A DNA stretch of 37,017 nt from Candidatus Brocadia sapporoensis (GTDB taxonomy: Bacteria > Planctomycetota > Brocadiia > Brocadiales > Brocadiaceae). Under the pieces are notes generated by a model. It saw only the letters and a list, made by a program, of their open reading frames with translations. It was not told the origin of the DNA and ran no database searches. Both the position numbers and the translations under genes were made by a program. This document shows positions 29,082 to 35,967 of the stretch, piece after piece (position 1 is the stretch's first letter; each line of letters begins with the position of its first letter). The stretch covers positions 1-37,017 of the forward strand of contig NZ_MJUW02000075.1 of the NCBI RefSeq assembly GCF_001753675.2, written 5' to 3'.

Positions 29082-29651
29082 CTATAAAAGCCGATAGGGA
29101 TATGCCCGCTTTGTCCATTCGTTCTCTGGATACTTAGCTTGAAGTTGTTCGTATGCCTCCTTAAGTCCTTTTGGATTTTTTGTATCCTTGTATTGGCATA
29201 CACCTTTCAGGTAAATTGCCTCTGGCGCCATACTACTCTTAGGGAAATCAGACAAAATCTTCTCCATGTATGAAAGTGCCTCTTTAAATGCATTGAGATC
29301 AAAATGCACTTTTGCAATACCCAGCAATAATGAAGGAATTAATTCTTCGGGTGAAAGAAAACCGACTGTCCTGTGATGCTCTTTGCCCTCTGTATCAAGT
29401 ATTATCAGGGTTGGAGTCCACTTCAGATTAAAATCGGTAGCCAGGGGTTGGGCATCAGAACGGGCGCGCAAGGGAATGAGAGAACTATTGATAAATTCTA
29501 TAACTTCTTTATGCGGATACGAAACTGTATCCATTTGTTGACACCCGATTCAGCCAGGGTTAAAGAAATCAAGTAAGACCGGCTTTTTCTCAGATCGAGC
29601 CCTTGACAGAGCCGCATTCATTACCGTTTCCCATGAAATTTTGTTTTCCAT
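29082..29651 (-). CDS. Thioredoxin-like selenoprotein (UxxC) with TPR-like tail
   Basis: Read through one TGA at 29550-29552, the frame gives 189 aa. It starts with an ATG at 29651 behind AAAGGAG, begins MENKISWETVMNAALS, and continues KPVLLDFFNPG-U-IGCQQMD. The thioredoxin fold follows: YPHKEVIEFINSS, then the cis-Pro region WTPTLIILD and GFLSPEEL. The C-terminal 70 residues look like a short TPR region (AKVHFDLNAFKEALSYME, then PKSSMAPEAIYLKGVCQYK). U-I-G-C occupies the active-site CxxC. Downstream of the TGA, GGAUAC-AGUUUC-GUAUCC folds as a stem whose loop begins 24 nt after UGA with G as second base, fitting the bacterial SECIS rules. There is no signal peptide. Without Sec decoding the product would end at 33 residues. 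The alternative is a nonsense mutation. Confidence 0.75.
29515..29552 (-). promoter_or_regulatory. Putative bacterial SECIS element with the Sec UGA codon
   Basis: In the mRNA the UGA is followed by 17 nt, then stem GGAUAC, loop AGUUUC and stem GUAUCC. UGA-to-loop distance is 23 nt (the known range is about 16-37), the loop is 6 nt, and a G is among its first two bases. All match the published bacterial SECIS consensus as I know it. The codons inside it still fit the thioredoxin family (QQMDTVSYP). Confidence 0.65.
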
Positions 29652-29740
29652 AGTCTTATCTCCTTTATAGTAAAGTTAAGGTTCATATAGAATATCCATC
29701 CTTTTTTTCACCGGAAGCAAAAGACAAAAAGAGACAAAAG

Positions 29741-30044
29741 GGGTCAAATCTTTACAGGCTGTCCGAGAATACAAATTCATGGAACGGCTTAAATTTAGCC
29801 ATATGATTGATCCTCCTCGGTTGGGTATCTTCTGGTAAGGGAAATAATGATACGGTCGGTTTACTCGACAAAATGAGTGACCTAAAAAAAGTTTTACCTG
29901 CTTGGTATCGTTTTGCCGGGAAGACTTCATTTCGCTTTATTATATCATTCAATTTTACCATCGCAACCAATTTGCCCTCATTTTCTGGCTAAATTGATGA
30001 AAACAGAAATGCCGCATTCTCGGACAACCTGAAAAGTTTGACCC
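29741..30044 (-). mobile_element. Internally deleted IS (MITE-like) with 29-30-bp terminal repeats
   Basis: The ends 29741-29770 and 30016-30044 are inverted repeats matching at about 27 of 30 positions (outer GGGTCAAA, inner TGTCCGAGAAT). Reading the minus strand there is a promoter-like TTGCGA-N16-TATAAT, then GAGGAGG and ATG (29802) starting MAKFKPFHEF, which resembles a transposase N-terminus. The frame runs into the far terminal repeat after 16 codons. Thus nearly all of the transposase is deleted while both ends remain. It adjoins a broken HtrA-type gene. The IS family is not certain. Confidence 0.65.
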
Positions 30045-30564: not shown

Positions 30565-33282
30565 ATGATGGAGAATAAATCAATAGAGAATGATCTCTCG
30601 GATAAAAATACCTTAACACTGGATCTCTTAGAACATGTAACCGAACCTATTGGAAAGTATCCTTACCGAGGGTGGGAAACAGCATACCGTGAACAATGGA
30701 AATATGACTACACCGGCAGAACTACTCATTCTGTGAACTGTGCAGGTTCCTGTACCTGGAAGGTCTACGTCAAGAATAATATTGCCTTTAAAGAGGAGCA
30801 GTATGCAGACTATCCTGATATTAATCCAATTCTGCCTACGTATAATCCACGAGGTTGCCAGAAGGGTGCTAATTACAAGGAATATGTGTATGGTCCGCAA
30901 CGTTTGAAATACCCATTAATGCGGGTCGGTGCCCGGGGTGAAGGGAAATGGAAAAGAATTTCCTGGGAAGAGGCAATGAGGCATATCGCCAATAAAATTG
31001 TCAATACCATAGCCACTCACGGTCCCGATACGATAACATTTTATTCAGCAAATCCTGCAAAGTTTGCAATTACATATGCGGGAGGTTTGCGTTTGGCAAA
31101 CCTGATCGGTGGCGTTGTGTGTTCCTATTATGATTGGGTTTCTGATCTTCCTCCCGGTGAACCTATGACATGGGGTGTGCAAACCGATTCATGCGAGGCC
31201 GCCGACTGGTTTCATTCAAAATATATCATCGTATGGGGTTCAAATCTGCTAGAAACCCGCATTCCCGATGCCCATTTCTTGACGGAAACACGAATGCGGG
31301 GGACTAAAATAGTGGCTATCTTCCCGGAATACAATCCAACCTCAATCCACGCAGATATCTTTATTCCTGTAAAACCCGGAACCGACAGCGCCCTGGCCTT
31401 AGGTATGGCAAATTTTATTATAAATAAGGGACTCTACGATGAGGCATATATAAAACAGTATACCGATATGCCAATGCTTATCCGGATGGATAATGGAAAG
31501 TTCCTCAGAGAAAGCGATATGACCTCGAACAGCAGTCAAGAAAAATTCTATCTCTGGGACCAGAATACCGGGAAACCGGTCCTTGCGCCCGGCGCTCAGG
31601 GATTTCTTGGCTCTCAGGACTGGACGCTGAATCTTGATTCAATAAAACCCGCCCTTGAGGGTATCTTTACCGTACATACAAACACTGGTCCGGTTAAGGT
31701 AACCCCGGTCTTTTCGTTGTTGAAGCAAAAAGTTGCTGCTTATGATCTCGTAACGGTATCGGGTATTACCGGTGTGGAAGATTGTCTTATCGCGCGGATT
31801 GCGCGTGAGTTTGCAAGCACTAAGCCGGCCAGGATTATTGGGGGCGCAGGAACAAATCATTATTATCATAACGACCTTACGAACAGGAGCCATATATTAC
31901 TTGCAGCTTTGACGGGCAATGTGGGAATACCAGGCGGGGGATTTGATCATTATGTGGGTCAGGAAAAAATCTGGTGTAAAGAAGGCACCTTTGACCTTGC
32001 TTATCCCCTTGGTAGCACAAAGCAGCGGTTTCAGCCAACAACACTTTGGACATTTATACACTCCCATATTATGTCAGACGTTGACAATCTTTGGCCGCAT
32101 CCTATGATAGATTATATACGCGAAAGCGTTCACAATGGCTGGATGCCGCTGTTCCCTGAAGGGACGCTTGACAGTGGTAAATCGCCTAAGATTCTTTTTG
32201 TTTGGGGTTCAAATTTTCTAAATCAGGCAAAGGGGTTCGAATCAATATTGGCAAACCTTTGGCCAAAGCTTGATCTTGTCGTCGATATTGACTACCGCAT
32301 GAATACAACAGGTCTTTATGCGGATATAATCCTGCCCGCGGCAAGTATGTTTGAGAAGTGGGATATCAGCACTACCGATCTTCACTCATATGTAAGTCCA
32401 TTTACCCCTATCATAGAACCTCAGATGGAAAGTAAAACAGATTGGCAAATCTGGCAAACATTGGCCAGGGCACTTCAGGAAACAAAATTCTCATATCATG
32501 ATACCTTGCCTGATGGAACTCCCGTTTACCGCGATTTTTCGACTTTGGTAAATGATTTTACCGCGCAGGGTACTTTAACATCTGATAAGGCTGCAGGGCA
32601 GTTTATTCTCGATAATTCGGTGGGGACACGAGGAATGACAATGGACGGAATCAATGAAAAGCCCCGGCGGTTTGTAGCCACGGGTAAGGAATTTACCAGT
32701 GATATCAAAGACGGAATTGCGTATTACGGCCTCCAGAGGATGTATGAATTAAAGCAGCCACTTTCTACACTAACAGGCCGTCAGCAATTCTATATTGATC
32801 ATCCCTGGTTCCTCGAGTTTGGAGAAGAATTGCCGGCGTATAAACCTCCTGTTCAGGAAGATAAGTACCCGCTCCGATGGATTACTCCCCATAGCCGCTG
32901 GAGTATTCATTCAACATGGCGGGATGCAAAGTATCAATTGCGGTTGCAAAGGGGACAGCCTGTTGTGTACTTAAATCCGTCTGAAGCTACCGCCCGTAAT
33001 TTGATTGATAATGATGCCCTTGAGATTTACAATAATTACGGAAAGATATTAGCCCATCTCTGCATTTCACCAAGAATCCCTCCGGGTATGGCACTGATGT
33101 ACCATGGATGGGAATATTATAGCTTTCGTAAAGGCGGTTTTCAGAGCCCGACAACGATTCGCATAAAACCAACACAGCTTGTCGGTGGATATGGGCAACT
33201 CAAGTTTAAGGCCAATTATTGGGGTCCAACGGGGAATCAGAAGGATACGCGGGTAGAGGTTCGTAAGTATAAGAGCGGATAG
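30565..33282 (+). CDS. Molybdopterin catalytic (alpha) subunit, type II DMSO reductase family
   Basis: A 905-aa Mo-bisMGD enzyme of the type II DMSO reductase family (NarG, NxrA, EbdA, SerA, ClrA). The N-terminal Fe-S site has the type II pattern, His55-x3-Cys59-x3-Cys63-x34-Cys98 (THSVNCAGSC, PRGCQKGA). The Mo-ligand Asp is probably Asp190 in SYYDWVSDLPPGEP, aligned with Asp222 of NarG. The length equals EbdA/SerA (about 900-980) and is far below NarG (about 1,240) or anammox NxrA (about 1,150). No twin-arginine motif appears in the first 60 residues, unlike periplasmic EbdA/SerA/ClrA/DdhA. The substrate is unknown: nitrite/nitrate, another oxyanion or a hydroxylation reaction are all open. 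The RBS is GGTGGAGA. Confidence 0.88.
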   Translation: MMENKSIENDLSDKNTLTLDLLEHVTEPIGKYPYRGWETAYREQWKYDYTGRTTHSVNCAGSCTWKVYVKNNIAFKEEQYADYPDINPILPTYNPRGCQKGANYKEYVYGPQRLKYPLMRVGARGEGKWKRISWEEAMRHIANKIVNTIATHGPDTITFYSANPAKFAITYAGGLRLANLIGGVVCSYYDWVSDLPPGEPMTWGVQTDSCEAADWFHSKYIIVWGSNLLETRIPDAHFLTETRMRGTKIVAIFPEYNPTSIHADIFIPVKPGTDSALALGMANFIINKGLYDEAYIKQYTDMPMLIRMDNGKFLRESDMTSNSSQEKFYLWDQNTGKPVLAPGAQGFLGSQDWTLNLDSIKPALEGIFTVHTNTGPVKVTPVFSLLKQKVAAYDLVTVSGITGVEDCLIARIAREFASTKPARIIGGAGTNHYYHNDLTNRSHILLAALTGNVGIPGGGFDHYVGQEKIWCKEGTFDLAYPLGSTKQRFQPTTLWTFIHSHIMSDVDNLWPHPMIDYIRESVHNGWMPLFPEGTLDSGKSPKILFVWGSNFLNQAKGFESILANLWPKLDLVVDIDYRMNTTGLYADIILPAASMFEKWDISTTDLHSYVSPFTPIIEPQMESKTDWQIWQTLARALQETKFSYHDTLPDGTPVYRDFSTLVNDFTAQGTLTSDKAAGQFILDNSVGTRGMTMDGINEKPRRFVATGKEFTSDIKDGIAYYGLQRMYELKQPLSTLTGRQQFYIDHPWFLEFGEELPAYKPPVQEDKYPLRWITPHSRWSIHSTWRDAKYQLRLQRGQPVVYLNPSEATARNLIDNDALEIYNNYGKILAHLCISPRIPPGMALMYHGWEYYSFRKGGFQSPTTIRIKPTQLVGGYGQLKFKANYWGPTGNQKDTRVEVRKYKSG

Positions 33283-33327
33283 AGGTGTATTTTCACCATT
33301 CTCAGGAAACTGACAAACTGGAGAGTA

Positions 33328-33417
33328 ATGCGCTATTTGCGGGAAAAGACAAAAGAAGATGTCTCTGTAGCGCCGTTAGGAGGGTGGTCTTCGATAATGC
33401 TCACATCATTTAAGTAA
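33328..33417 (+). CDS. Possible 29-codon ORF between alpha and beta genes
   Basis: The 205-nt gap between alpha and beta contains an ATG behind GGAGAG that opens 29 codons (MRYLREKTKEDVSVAPLGG and on). No homologue comes to mind. It may be chance. It is listed because the gap is unusually long for subunits of one enzyme. Confidence 0.15.
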   Translation: MRYLREKTKEDVSVAPLGGWSSIMLTSFK

Positions 33418-33488
33418 CTCCACTCAAACCTTCAGGTCTGATCCTTTATCGTTTTATTTAAGTGACTATGTGAAGAGTAATAATTATT

Positions 33489-34520
33489 ATGGCAATCATG
33501 AGACAGATTCAAATGGTTTTTGATCTTAACAAATGCATTGGATGTCATACATGCGCCATGGCATGCAAGACGATGTGGACGGATAGAGATGCAGGACAGA
33601 TGCACATGTATTGGATGAATGTAGAAACACGGCCTGGCACAGGGTACCCAAAAGATTGGGAAAATCTGGGCGGTTGGTTTAATGCCGATAGAAATACTAT
33701 ACCGCTTCCTCATATTCACGAAGGTTATGGCACACCCTGGGAATATAACTATAAGGAGGTACTGAAAACAGAGGGAGGAGATACTCCTGCTCCAAAACTA
33801 ATTCCATCGCCGGACCCTTCAGAGTATCCTTATGCCAGCAACTGGGATGAAGATGTGGGTAAGGGAACTTTTCCGAACTCCTACTATTTTTATCTGCCAC
33901 GCATCTGTAATCACTGCACTGACCCTGCATGCCTGGAAGCTTGTCCCCGGCAGGCCGTTTATAAACGGAGTGAAGACGGCATTGTTCTGATCGATCCAAA
34001 GAGATGCAGAGGCTATCGTTACTGTGTTAAGGGGTGCCCTTATAAAAAAGTTTACTACAATCCAGAAGAAAAGATATCCCAAAAATGTGTTTTTTGTTAT
34101 CCAAGAATTGAGGAGCGTAAAGGGAACTTCTGCTCAACACAGTGTGCCGGCCGCATAAGCTGGATTGGTTACGCTGATGATACAAAGAGTAATATCTATA
34201 AATTGATAAACACATGGAAGGTTGCTTTGCGGTTACACCCTGAATATAAAACCGAACCTAATGTGTTCTATATTCCACCTCTCAGCCCACCTACCTATTC
34301 ATTTACCAGCAAGTTAACGGATAGTCCGCGTATCCCTATTGATATGCTGGCAAAGATGTTTGGTGATACCCACGATCAGAATTATGACCAACGAGTAACT
34401 CGTATTAAACAAATCTTTGATATTCTTCAAAACGAACGAAATAAAGTTGCATCTGGTGGAAATTCTGAACTGATTGATATTTTAATCTCGCGTTCAGAGG
34501 CAGACCGCTTTCAGATATAA
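33489..34520 (+). CDS. Iron-sulfur electron-transfer (beta) subunit
   Basis: A 343-aa polyferredoxin of the NarH/NxrB/EbdB type. Four Cys groups are visible: CIGCHTCAMACK near the start, CNHCTDPACLEACP, CRGYRYCVKGCPYKK, and KCVFCYPRIEE with CSTQCAGR. In the third group the second position is Tyr (CRGYRYC), where NarH has Trp. This is the substitution that makes that centre a [3Fe-4S] cluster, so three [4Fe-4S] and one [3Fe-4S] are expected. It connects the alpha subunit's Fe-S cluster to the haem of the gamma subunit. Complete; no signal peptide. Confidence 0.9.
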   Translation: MAIMRQIQMVFDLNKCIGCHTCAMACKTMWTDRDAGQMHMYWMNVETRPGTGYPKDWENLGGWFNADRNTIPLPHIHEGYGTPWEYNYKEVLKTEGGDTPAPKLIPSPDPSEYPYASNWDEDVGKGTFPNSYYFYLPRICNHCTDPACLEACPRQAVYKRSEDGIVLIDPKRCRGYRYCVKGCPYKKVYYNPEEKISQKCVFCYPRIEERKGNFCSTQCAGRISWIGYADDTKSNIYKLINTWKVALRLHPEYKTEPNVFYIPPLSPPTYSFTSKLTDSPRIPIDMLAKMFGDTHDQNYDQRVTRIKQIFDILQNERNKVASGGNSELIDILISRSEADRFQI

Positions 34521-34569
34521 ATAAGAAAATTTCAAATTCAAAAACATTTATAGAAGTAATATCTTAACC

Positions 34570-35229
34570 ATGCCCGATCATGATCTCAGCGGCTCGTCGA
34601 GGGCCATTACAGCAGTATATATACAGGGGCCTGTAACCCTTGCCCCATTAGACCCTGCTTGGATCCAGACCCCGGAAACTGTAATAACCCTCAGTAGGCG
34701 GATTCATGAGACGGGGGCCAAAATGGTTGACATGGGTAATGAAAACAGGCGTATCAAGGTGAAAGTAGTGCACAATGGAACTGATATCTTTTTCTTCTAC
34801 CAGTGGGATGAGAGTACCCCAAATGTTACGGTAAATGATTACTCGCTTTTTGCCGATGCCTTTGCTATGGAAATCCCCCTTATAACAGAGGTAAGTCCTA
34901 TCTGGATGGGCGCCAAGGACAAACCTGTAAATATCATTTACTGGAGAGCAGACCTTGCCAGACCTGAAAACATCGTTGGTGGAGGCATTGGTACCACTCA
35001 AATAAGTTCAGATACGGAATCTCAAAATATCAGACATTATCAGAATTGGGCTAATGGAGTATGGACAGTAATTATAACTCGACCTATGACTACCGCCTCG
35101 CACAATCAGGTCTCTTTTGTTCGTAGCGCCACTTATAGGCTAGCCCTTGCCAATTGGAAAGGTGGAAGTGATGCTGAAAGGGGAGGGAACAAAATAATCT
35201 CTGATTGGCTGTATCTTTTTATTAAATAG
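34570..35229 (+). CDS. Haem b (gamma) subunit, EbdC/NxrC-like
   Basis: A 219-aa protein of the ethylbenzene-dehydrogenase haem-binding family. Typical stretches are IFFFYQWDES, PIWMGAKDKPVNIIYWRAD and LANWKGGSDAERGGNKIISDW. In EbdC the haem b is held by Met and Lys. By position these would be Met113 and Lys208 here (inference). No signal peptide or membrane segment is present, whereas free-standing periplasmic homologues carry one. Together with the alpha subunit this leaves the complex without a visible export signal. The start is at ATG 34570 with a weak ribosome-binding site, 49 nt after the beta gene. Confidence 0.85.
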   Translation: MPDHDLSGSSRAITAVYIQGPVTLAPLDPAWIQTPETVITLSRRIHETGAKMVDMGNENRRIKVKVVHNGTDIFFFYQWDESTPNVTVNDYSLFADAFAMEIPLITEVSPIWMGAKDKPVNIIYWRADLARPENIVGGGIGTTQISSDTESQNIRHYQNWANGVWTVIITRPMTTASHNQVSFVRSATYRLALANWKGGSDAERGGNKIISDWLYLFIK

Positions 35230-35247
35230 TACCCGGAATAGGGACTG

Positions 35248-35967
35248 ATGAATAACGTATTCCTGACGCCATTATCTGCAAACCATACAGAATCAATTAA
35301 TAGAAGTTATCTATACAAATTGCTTTCTTTCGGATTCCGTTATCCTACTTCAGAAACTTTTAAAACATTTCAAAATGGGGAATTTTTTGTTAGGTTATGG
35401 GATACCATATCATTACTTCCGCATGTAAAGTTCATGAAGACCGAACAAGCGGAACAGGGCAAAAATGTTCAAAATGACTTGGGAAAAAGCACCTATGAAG
35501 ATTTTGTAGTAAAATTAATCCAAACCTTCGATATCGGTATTCCAGAACCACCATGCCCGCCGTATGAAGGATTTTATCGGAGCAAATCAAGAACTGCCGT
35601 CATGCTGGAGGTAACTGAGTTTTACAGGCATTTTGGTCTTGCAATGAGCAAGAGGGATGGTAAACGCGAACTTCCTGATCATCTTTGTGTTGAGCTGGAG
35701 TTTCTTCATTTCCTCGCTTTTAAAGAATCACAAACTAGAATTGATAAAGATTCAAAATCTCTGGAAGGATATCTTCTTGCACAAAAAGACTTTCTCAATC
35801 GCCATCCGGCACAATGGGTTCCAAAGTTCTGCGACTCACTTTGCAACCGGGTTGATATCCCGTTCTATAATTTACTTGCCCGGGTTACCGCAATGTTTAT
35901 CACTCATGAACTTGAATTGATAACTTCCCATATAAAACCCTTTTTAAAGAAAAATGAGGGGCCATAA
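35248..35967 (+). CDS. TorD/NarJ-family molybdoenzyme assembly chaperone
   Basis: A 239-aa all-helical chaperone that would hold the alpha subunit during cofactor insertion. The family signature is PDHLCVELEFLHFLAFKE near residues 143-160. LYKLLSFGFRYPTSETF at the start and LNRHPAQWVPKFCDSL later are also typical. It comes last, in the ebdABCD order, whereas ser, clr and ddh operons place the chaperone before gamma. It starts 18 nt after gamma. Its stop codon lies exactly at the point where the broken dinB gene begins on the other strand. Confidence 0.85.
   Translation: MNNVFLTPLSANHTESINRSYLYKLLSFGFRYPTSETFKTFQNGEFFVRLWDTISLLPHVKFMKTEQAEQGKNVQNDLGKSTYEDFVVKLIQTFDIGIPEPPCPPYEGFYRSKSRTAVMLEVTEFYRHFGLAMSKRDGKRELPDHLCVELEFLHFLAFKESQTRIDKDSKSLEGYLLAQKDFLNRHPAQWVPKFCDSLCNRVDIPFYNLLARVTAMFITHELELITSHIKPFLKKNEGP

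Follow-up and report, generated by a model that had tools for sequence, protein, structure and literature searches.

A probable thioredoxin-fold selenoprotein with a TPR tail in Candidatus Brocadia sapporoensis, from a family in which selenocysteine predominates over cysteine

The window, i.e. the whole stretch of 37,017 nucleotides of Candidatus Brocadia sapporoensis that was analysed, carries on its minus strand a putative selenoprotein gene of 189 residues (29651..29082), delimited by its frame and by family alignments, which starts with ATG at 29651 and ends with the stop codon TAG at 29084..29082. A Shine-Dalgarno-like AAGGAG (29665..29660, minus strand) lies 8 nt 5' of the ATG, and a GGAGG resembling it also precedes the start codons of homologues. 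The sole in-frame TGA of the 189 codons is codon 34 (29552..29550, minus strand), which occupies the first position of the U-I-G-C motif in the local sequence FFNPG-U-I-G-C-QQMD and, on the evidence of the frame and the homologues, is read as selenocysteine (Sec), while Cys37 (29541..29543, minus strand), invariant in both family alignments (A1 and A2), is the predicted resolving cysteine of this UxxC motif. A previous sequence-only reading had placed a frame in the interval 29082-29651, with a lone TGA at the first position of a CxxC-type active site and 156 codons behind it; the interval, the position of the TGA and the open frame all hold, the strand, which had not been given, is the minus strand, and the count is corrected to 155 sense codons. 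Read on the plus strand, the interval is non-coding, and that option was rejected. Conventional gene calling gives an ORF at 29082..29534, of 150 amino acids, which lacks the active site.

The remaining genes of the window translate normally with table 11, and none of its other TGA-interrupted frames, inspected by eye, has a redox motif or a selenoprotein-like layout. The selenoprotein gene is adjoined by a pirin gene; the recurrent neighbours, found in Brocadiaceae relatives only, are genes for pirin, an isochorismatase-like hydrolase, an NADPH-dependent FMN reductase (WrbA-like), NmrA and an HtrA protease. Upstream of the selenoprotein gene lies a pair of 24-nt inverted repeats (29747-30039; 88% complementary, 245 nt spacing), which resembles a MITE or the remains of an insertion sequence. 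A plasmid search returned no match. Genes for molybdopterin oxidoreductase, FeS, ethylbenzene-dehydrogenase-like heme and delta subunits stand in a row at 30565-35967 and, as judged from their sequences, form a DMSO-reductase-family operon (nitrate reductase/EBDH type) of an anammox genome.

The predicted product comprises a DsbD-gamma-like thioredoxin (Trx) domain (residues 1-110; 29322..29651, minus strand), with a W-T-P-T loop whose Pro80 takes the cis-Pro position, and a helical TPR tail (residues 111-182; 29106..29321, minus strand). Pfam assigns Thioredoxin_2 (PF13098) to residues 18-105 (42.2 bits against a cut-off of 27) and TPR_6 to residues 144-176, while PF00085 scores 22.0, below its cut-off of 23.5, and no NCBIfam model exceeds its cut-off for this protein. 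In the AlphaFold2 model (mean pLDDT 96.7, pTM 0.92), U34 immediately precedes the helix 35-44, and the active-site motif is located where helix 1 begins. The Trx domain (residues 1-110) can be superposed on DsbD-gamma with Z 12-13, an rmsd of about 2-3 and about 25% identity, and the tail on the TPRs of BamD (Z 14.0, rmsd 1.7, 83 residues); the TPR-like tail suspected earlier is thus borne out by both TPR_6 and the confident model. A full-length Foldseek search puts YbbN at the top (3qdn and 3qou; TM 0.43, rmsd above 10) and, because this superposition is poor, the resemblance to YbbN is, on the model, more probably one of common layout than of membership.

Downstream of the TGA lies a predicted bacterial SECIS hairpin, GGAUAC-AGUUUC-GUAUCC (29532..29515, minus strand), identified by sequence, folding, conservation and compensatory change, in which the stem halves GGAUAC (29532..29527) and GUAUCC (29520..29515) enclose the loop AGUUUC (29526..29521). 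The hairpin begins 17 nt past the UGA, its 6-nt loop starts with the 24th nt after the UGA (23 nt between) and its second loop base is G, exactly as the sequence-only reading had described it. The model of bacterial SECIS elements specifies a loop of 3-9 nt, a stem of 4-16 bp, a G in the first two loop positions, a distance of 16-37 nt from the UGA and an MFE of at most -7.5 kcal/mol (PMC13188914 Fig. 2A). The SECIS check that had been proposed comes out in favour, as the Brocadia hairpin lies within all of these published limits, with a loop of 6 nt, a stem of 6 bp, G in second position, 23 nt from the UGA and folding energies of -8.2 kcal/mol (48 nt) and -7.9 kcal/mol (hairpin alone). A Rfam search with E up to 5 gave chance matches only, so no Rfam family describes this hairpin. 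As the 48-nt fold is unremarkable in stability against shuffles (z = -0.76), the single-sequence fold proves little, and it is conservation that carries the case for a SECIS element.

All six pairs occur in exact register at 44 of 46 TGA loci, while the other in-frame positions in these genes show them in 26 of 5407 cases, and in 29/30 loci of a second set, which has one locus in common with the first. Among 29 distinct sequences, 100% of the cells are paired and two pairs are changed on both sides (A-U to G-C and U-A to A-U), and none of 500 shuffles attains the covariation score. The third pair is the clearest, as Asp GAT is accompanied by Tyr TAT in all 54 of 54 cases and Gly GGT by Tyr TAC in 11/13 (the other 2 retaining Tyr TAT through a G-U pair), while Glu GAA goes with Phe TTT at three loci. 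The association of these codons has a Fisher p of 6e-11, uncorrected for shared ancestry, and the change recurs in several separate branches (L026, L028, L059, L050, L064 and L101); since the change of the Tyr codon is synonymous, RNA pairing is its natural explanation. At loci above 60% GC, the Tyr of the motif is encoded by TAT in 16/19 cases, while elsewhere in those genes TAC is used 53 times out of 71 and TAT 18 times. The hairpin is broken in the CxxC forms L105, L106 and L110.

Eight loci in named genomes, sharing 60-90% identity with the window gene (Ca. Brocadia, Ca. Jettenia ecosi and MAGs labelled Bacillota and Deltaproteobacteria), share the TGA at the aligned active-site codon without exception and are otherwise uninterrupted; frameshifts in related strains, regarded beforehand as evidence against a selenoprotein, were found in none, and Ca. 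Brocadia pituitae, Ca. Jettenia ecosi and others keep the TGA. Within the same phylum (Planctomycetota), 30 of 294 genomes gave a total of 41 matches to a profile, all 41 with an in-frame TGA and one of them (G168) ending at a contig end. In the phylum of genome G296, 71 of the 80 near-full-length matches have one TGA and 9 have none, and in that of G294 one TGA is present in 37/37; the matches listed for the phylum of G295 are almost all the ones already counted in the phylum of G296. In total, an in-frame TGA is present in 149 of 158 near-full-length homologues from samples of three phyla that were drawn evenly and non-exhaustively, these counts being of sequences and not of independent events, so that the question of Cys or UGA at this position, posed by the earlier reading, is settled for UGA, with Cys rare. 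The ratio of Sec to Cys is valid for full-length Trx-TPR matches, while matches to the Trx part only include many Cys proteins. In every TGA locus whose residues were inspected one by one, a U-x-x-C motif is present (UIGC, UTGC, UAGC, UASC, UGGC, UPAC, ULGC and others), and across 22 divergent members C37, W78 and P80 do not vary. Among the nine homologues without TGA, three are C-x-x-C, while six no longer have the resolving Cys or lack the motif altogether. These six full-length degenerate forms (L107, L108, L109, L111, L112 and L113; e.g. CAGS, EEGS) may have a non-redox role, and some of their genomes retain SelB. One of the 41 Planctomycetota loci, L038 (G122:C1:23913-24455), has a later TAA besides the Sec TGA and represents a decayed copy or an assembly error.

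The 2.93-Mb genome of the window (99% complete) encodes SelA (559 bits), SelB (359 bits over the frame), SelD (360 bits) and a tRNA-Sec (69 bits) with the anticodon TCA (UCA); a search for selA, selB, selC and selD had been suggested, and all four are present. The selD gene (L017, G000:C75:1232-2158) itself contains one in-frame TGA in the motif CGG-U-AGK, which we take to be the known selenoprotein form of SelD, and its product is thus probably also a selenoprotein. In the phylum of G296, SelB is above the cut-off in 21/21 tested genomes with Sec forms and in 4/7 genomes with only non-Sec forms, being absent from the other 3/7, while in Planctomycetota it is found in 25 of 28 family-positive genomes versus 19 of 32 negatives. 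The three gene-positive Planctomycetota genomes without a SelB match (G138, G146 and G149) likely have an assembly gap, as SelA is present in all three. The four Brocadiaceae genomes that lack the Trx-TPR gene also lack SelA and SelB.

In a tree of 83 sequences, which has no established root and so does not prove that the entire group descends from a Sec form, Sec forms occupy both halves. Two CxxC forms, L105 and L110, both long-branched, nest in well supported Sec clades, a placement that fits a loss of Sec to Cys, and the other seven non-Sec forms constitute a separate clade. The window copy groups with a mostly Deltaproteobacterial UIGC clade, while a second Trx-TPR selenoprotein gene of the same genome (L059, G000:C39:33003-33542, plus strand), with the motif U-T-G-C, groups with a Planctomycetota clade; as the two copies fall in different clades, the tree suggests that the window copy, whose product is predicted to be cytoplasmic, was gained by transfer. 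L059 has a hairpin of the same form (GGGUAC/GUACCC) and a signal-peptide-like N-terminus, and its product is predicted to be exported. A third Brocadiaceae subgroup has the motif M-I-G/A-U-A-S-C (L062, L069, the second copy of L040, and L042), and in G088 such a copy adjoins a U-A-G-C copy, giving tandem selenoprotein paralogues.

The gene is best explained, with a probability of roughly 0.93, as encoding a genuine selenoprotein, a predicted Trx-fold oxidoreductase. Selenocysteine coding, the SECIS element and the domain layout are taken as established at the level of sequence, while the catalytic role is predicted from fold and motif, and the reductase direction and the docking role of the tail are put forward as reasonably probable. 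SelB and tRNA-Sec would decode the UGA of codon 34 as selenocysteine, guided by the hairpin 17 nt downstream, and yield a DsbD-gamma-like thioredoxin fold with a short TPR tail attached. The selenolate of Sec34 would attack a disulfide or an oxidised thiol of a protein client, Cys37 would resolve the selenenyl-sulfide and a reductant would then recycle the enzyme, while the TPR tail probably serves to bind the client or a partner.

A TGA that is a real stop, a sequencing error or a nonsense mutation, leaving a 150-residue protein initiated at Met40 or a 33-residue peptide, would agree with the conventional gene call and with the internal ATG at the equivalent place in many relatives, but is very improbable, as the complete genome of Brocadia pituitae and about 150 relatives have the TGA too, in frames that stay open before and after it, the 33 N-terminal residues before it are conserved as protein in the family alignments, hairpin covariation and the Sec machinery exist, and the Met40-initiated protein would be without the catalytic motif. 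The same sharing of the TGA upholds the earlier view that a random nonsense mutation is unlikely, and a pseudogene or sequencing error was dropped, as it is contradicted by the conservation across relatives. Nothing beyond the open frame speaks for the UGA being read as another amino acid (Trp, near-cognate read-through) or in a reassigned code, and the probability of this is close to negligible: the other window genes are normal under table 11, the TGA aligns with the catalytic Cys of the Cys forms and not with Trp, a tRNA-Sec with anticodon UCA exists, and the conserved hairpin would be needless.

The function allows two further readings. The protein is unlikely to be a selenium-dependent chaperedoxin, i.e. 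a Trx-TPR holdase protecting and reducing clients in the way of YbbN/CnoX, as the full-length superposition is poor, the Trx domain is by sequence nearest to DsbD-gamma-like domains and not to YbbN, and the tail is shorter than that of YbbN, even though the domain order is identical and YbbN is the top full-length match. Also doubtful is a role as a cytoplasmic peroxidase or as a reductase of electrophiles, with a small molecule and not a protein disulfide as the target of Sec34. It would suit the pirin, isochorismatase-like, FMN reductase and NmrA genes often near the gene in Brocadiaceae, a set often tied to quinone or electrophile stress; this neighbourhood, however, is not retained outside Brocadiaceae (L026 and L028), and the resolving Cys and the W-x-P loop of thiol-disulfide oxidoreductases are invariant. 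That the preferred thiol-disulfide oxidoreductase serves in oxidative or electrophile stress is a guess drawn only from the neighbours in Brocadiaceae.

More broadly, and with somewhat less than even odds, the Trx-TPR proteins may constitute an uncatalogued family that spans three or more phyla; Sec would be its usual and probably its ancestral state, Cys forms would be rare secondary losses, and the union of a Sec-Trx domain with TPRs may define a selenium-dependent client-docking reductase or chaperedoxin. If so, the scarcity of Cys homologues would explain why the family was missed by searches for Cys/Sec pairs; families that have no Cys forms may, according to its authors, escape the tool deep-Sep (PMC12013277). 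The unusual selenoprotein foreseen by the sequence-only reading stands as regards the joining of Trx and TPR with Sec, but not as a lone oddity, as it belongs to a widespread family with Sec as the normal state. As gene callers stop at the UGA and keep a fragment without the active site, many genomes likely carry a wrong annotation of this redox enzyme, which is common in anammox bacteria and related anaerobes.

A literature search found no anammox selenoprotein and no Trx-TPR selenoprotein, and none of the latter is named in the portions at hand of the selenoprotein inventories of 2026 (PMC13188914) and 2022 (PMC9312934). Sec-containing UxxC proteins of the thioredoxin fold are already known, and a PF13098 UxxC protein listed in the 2026 inventory may overlap with the Trx-TPR group. 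This is the Sec 'thiol:disulfide interchange protein' or Trx-like 2 (PF13098, cd02953, UxxC, WP_011366075.1), as given in the portions at hand of its sources (PMC13188914, PMC9312934, PMC2398784) and reported from Syntrophus and Geobacter (PMC1794560); it shares the DsbD-gamma-type Trx fold, a UxxC with Sec first and an occurrence in Deltaproteobacteria, but no TPR tail is mentioned in those portions, the comparison being one of descriptions and an overlap with WP_011366075.1 being possible. The Sec thioredoxin (PF00085, UxxC), a kind experimentally verified (PMC13188914), has the same UxxC selenothioredoxin chemistry but differs in that PF00085 scores below its cut-off here and the Trx-TPR protein has an added tail. 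The selenoproteins TsoB (NF045694) and VPGUxxT (NF041383) match the Trx region weakly, at 49.6 of 805 and 26.8 of 275, far below the curated cut-offs, and have other architecture and motifs. Outside the selenoproteins, the C-terminal domain of E. coli DsbD has the fold of residues 1-110, but contains Cys in place of Sec, belongs to a membrane protein whose action is periplasmic and has no TPR tail, while YbbN/CnoX likewise has a Trx domain followed by TPR repeats, but with little sequence relation and a longer TPR region. The Trx-TPR family is unusual, as judged from its sequences, in that its members as a rule carry Sec and only few carry Cys. For nearly all selenoproteins, the homologues with Cys are by far the more numerous (PMC13188914), and the GOS data contain 22 Sec versus 2,098 Cys forms of the thiol:disulfide interchange family (PMC2398784), a ratio opposite to the one found here. 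Because Cys homologues usually predominate, a Trx-fold family consisting almost wholly of Sec forms is a useful test of Sec retention, and one that ties selenium supply to anammox bacteria.
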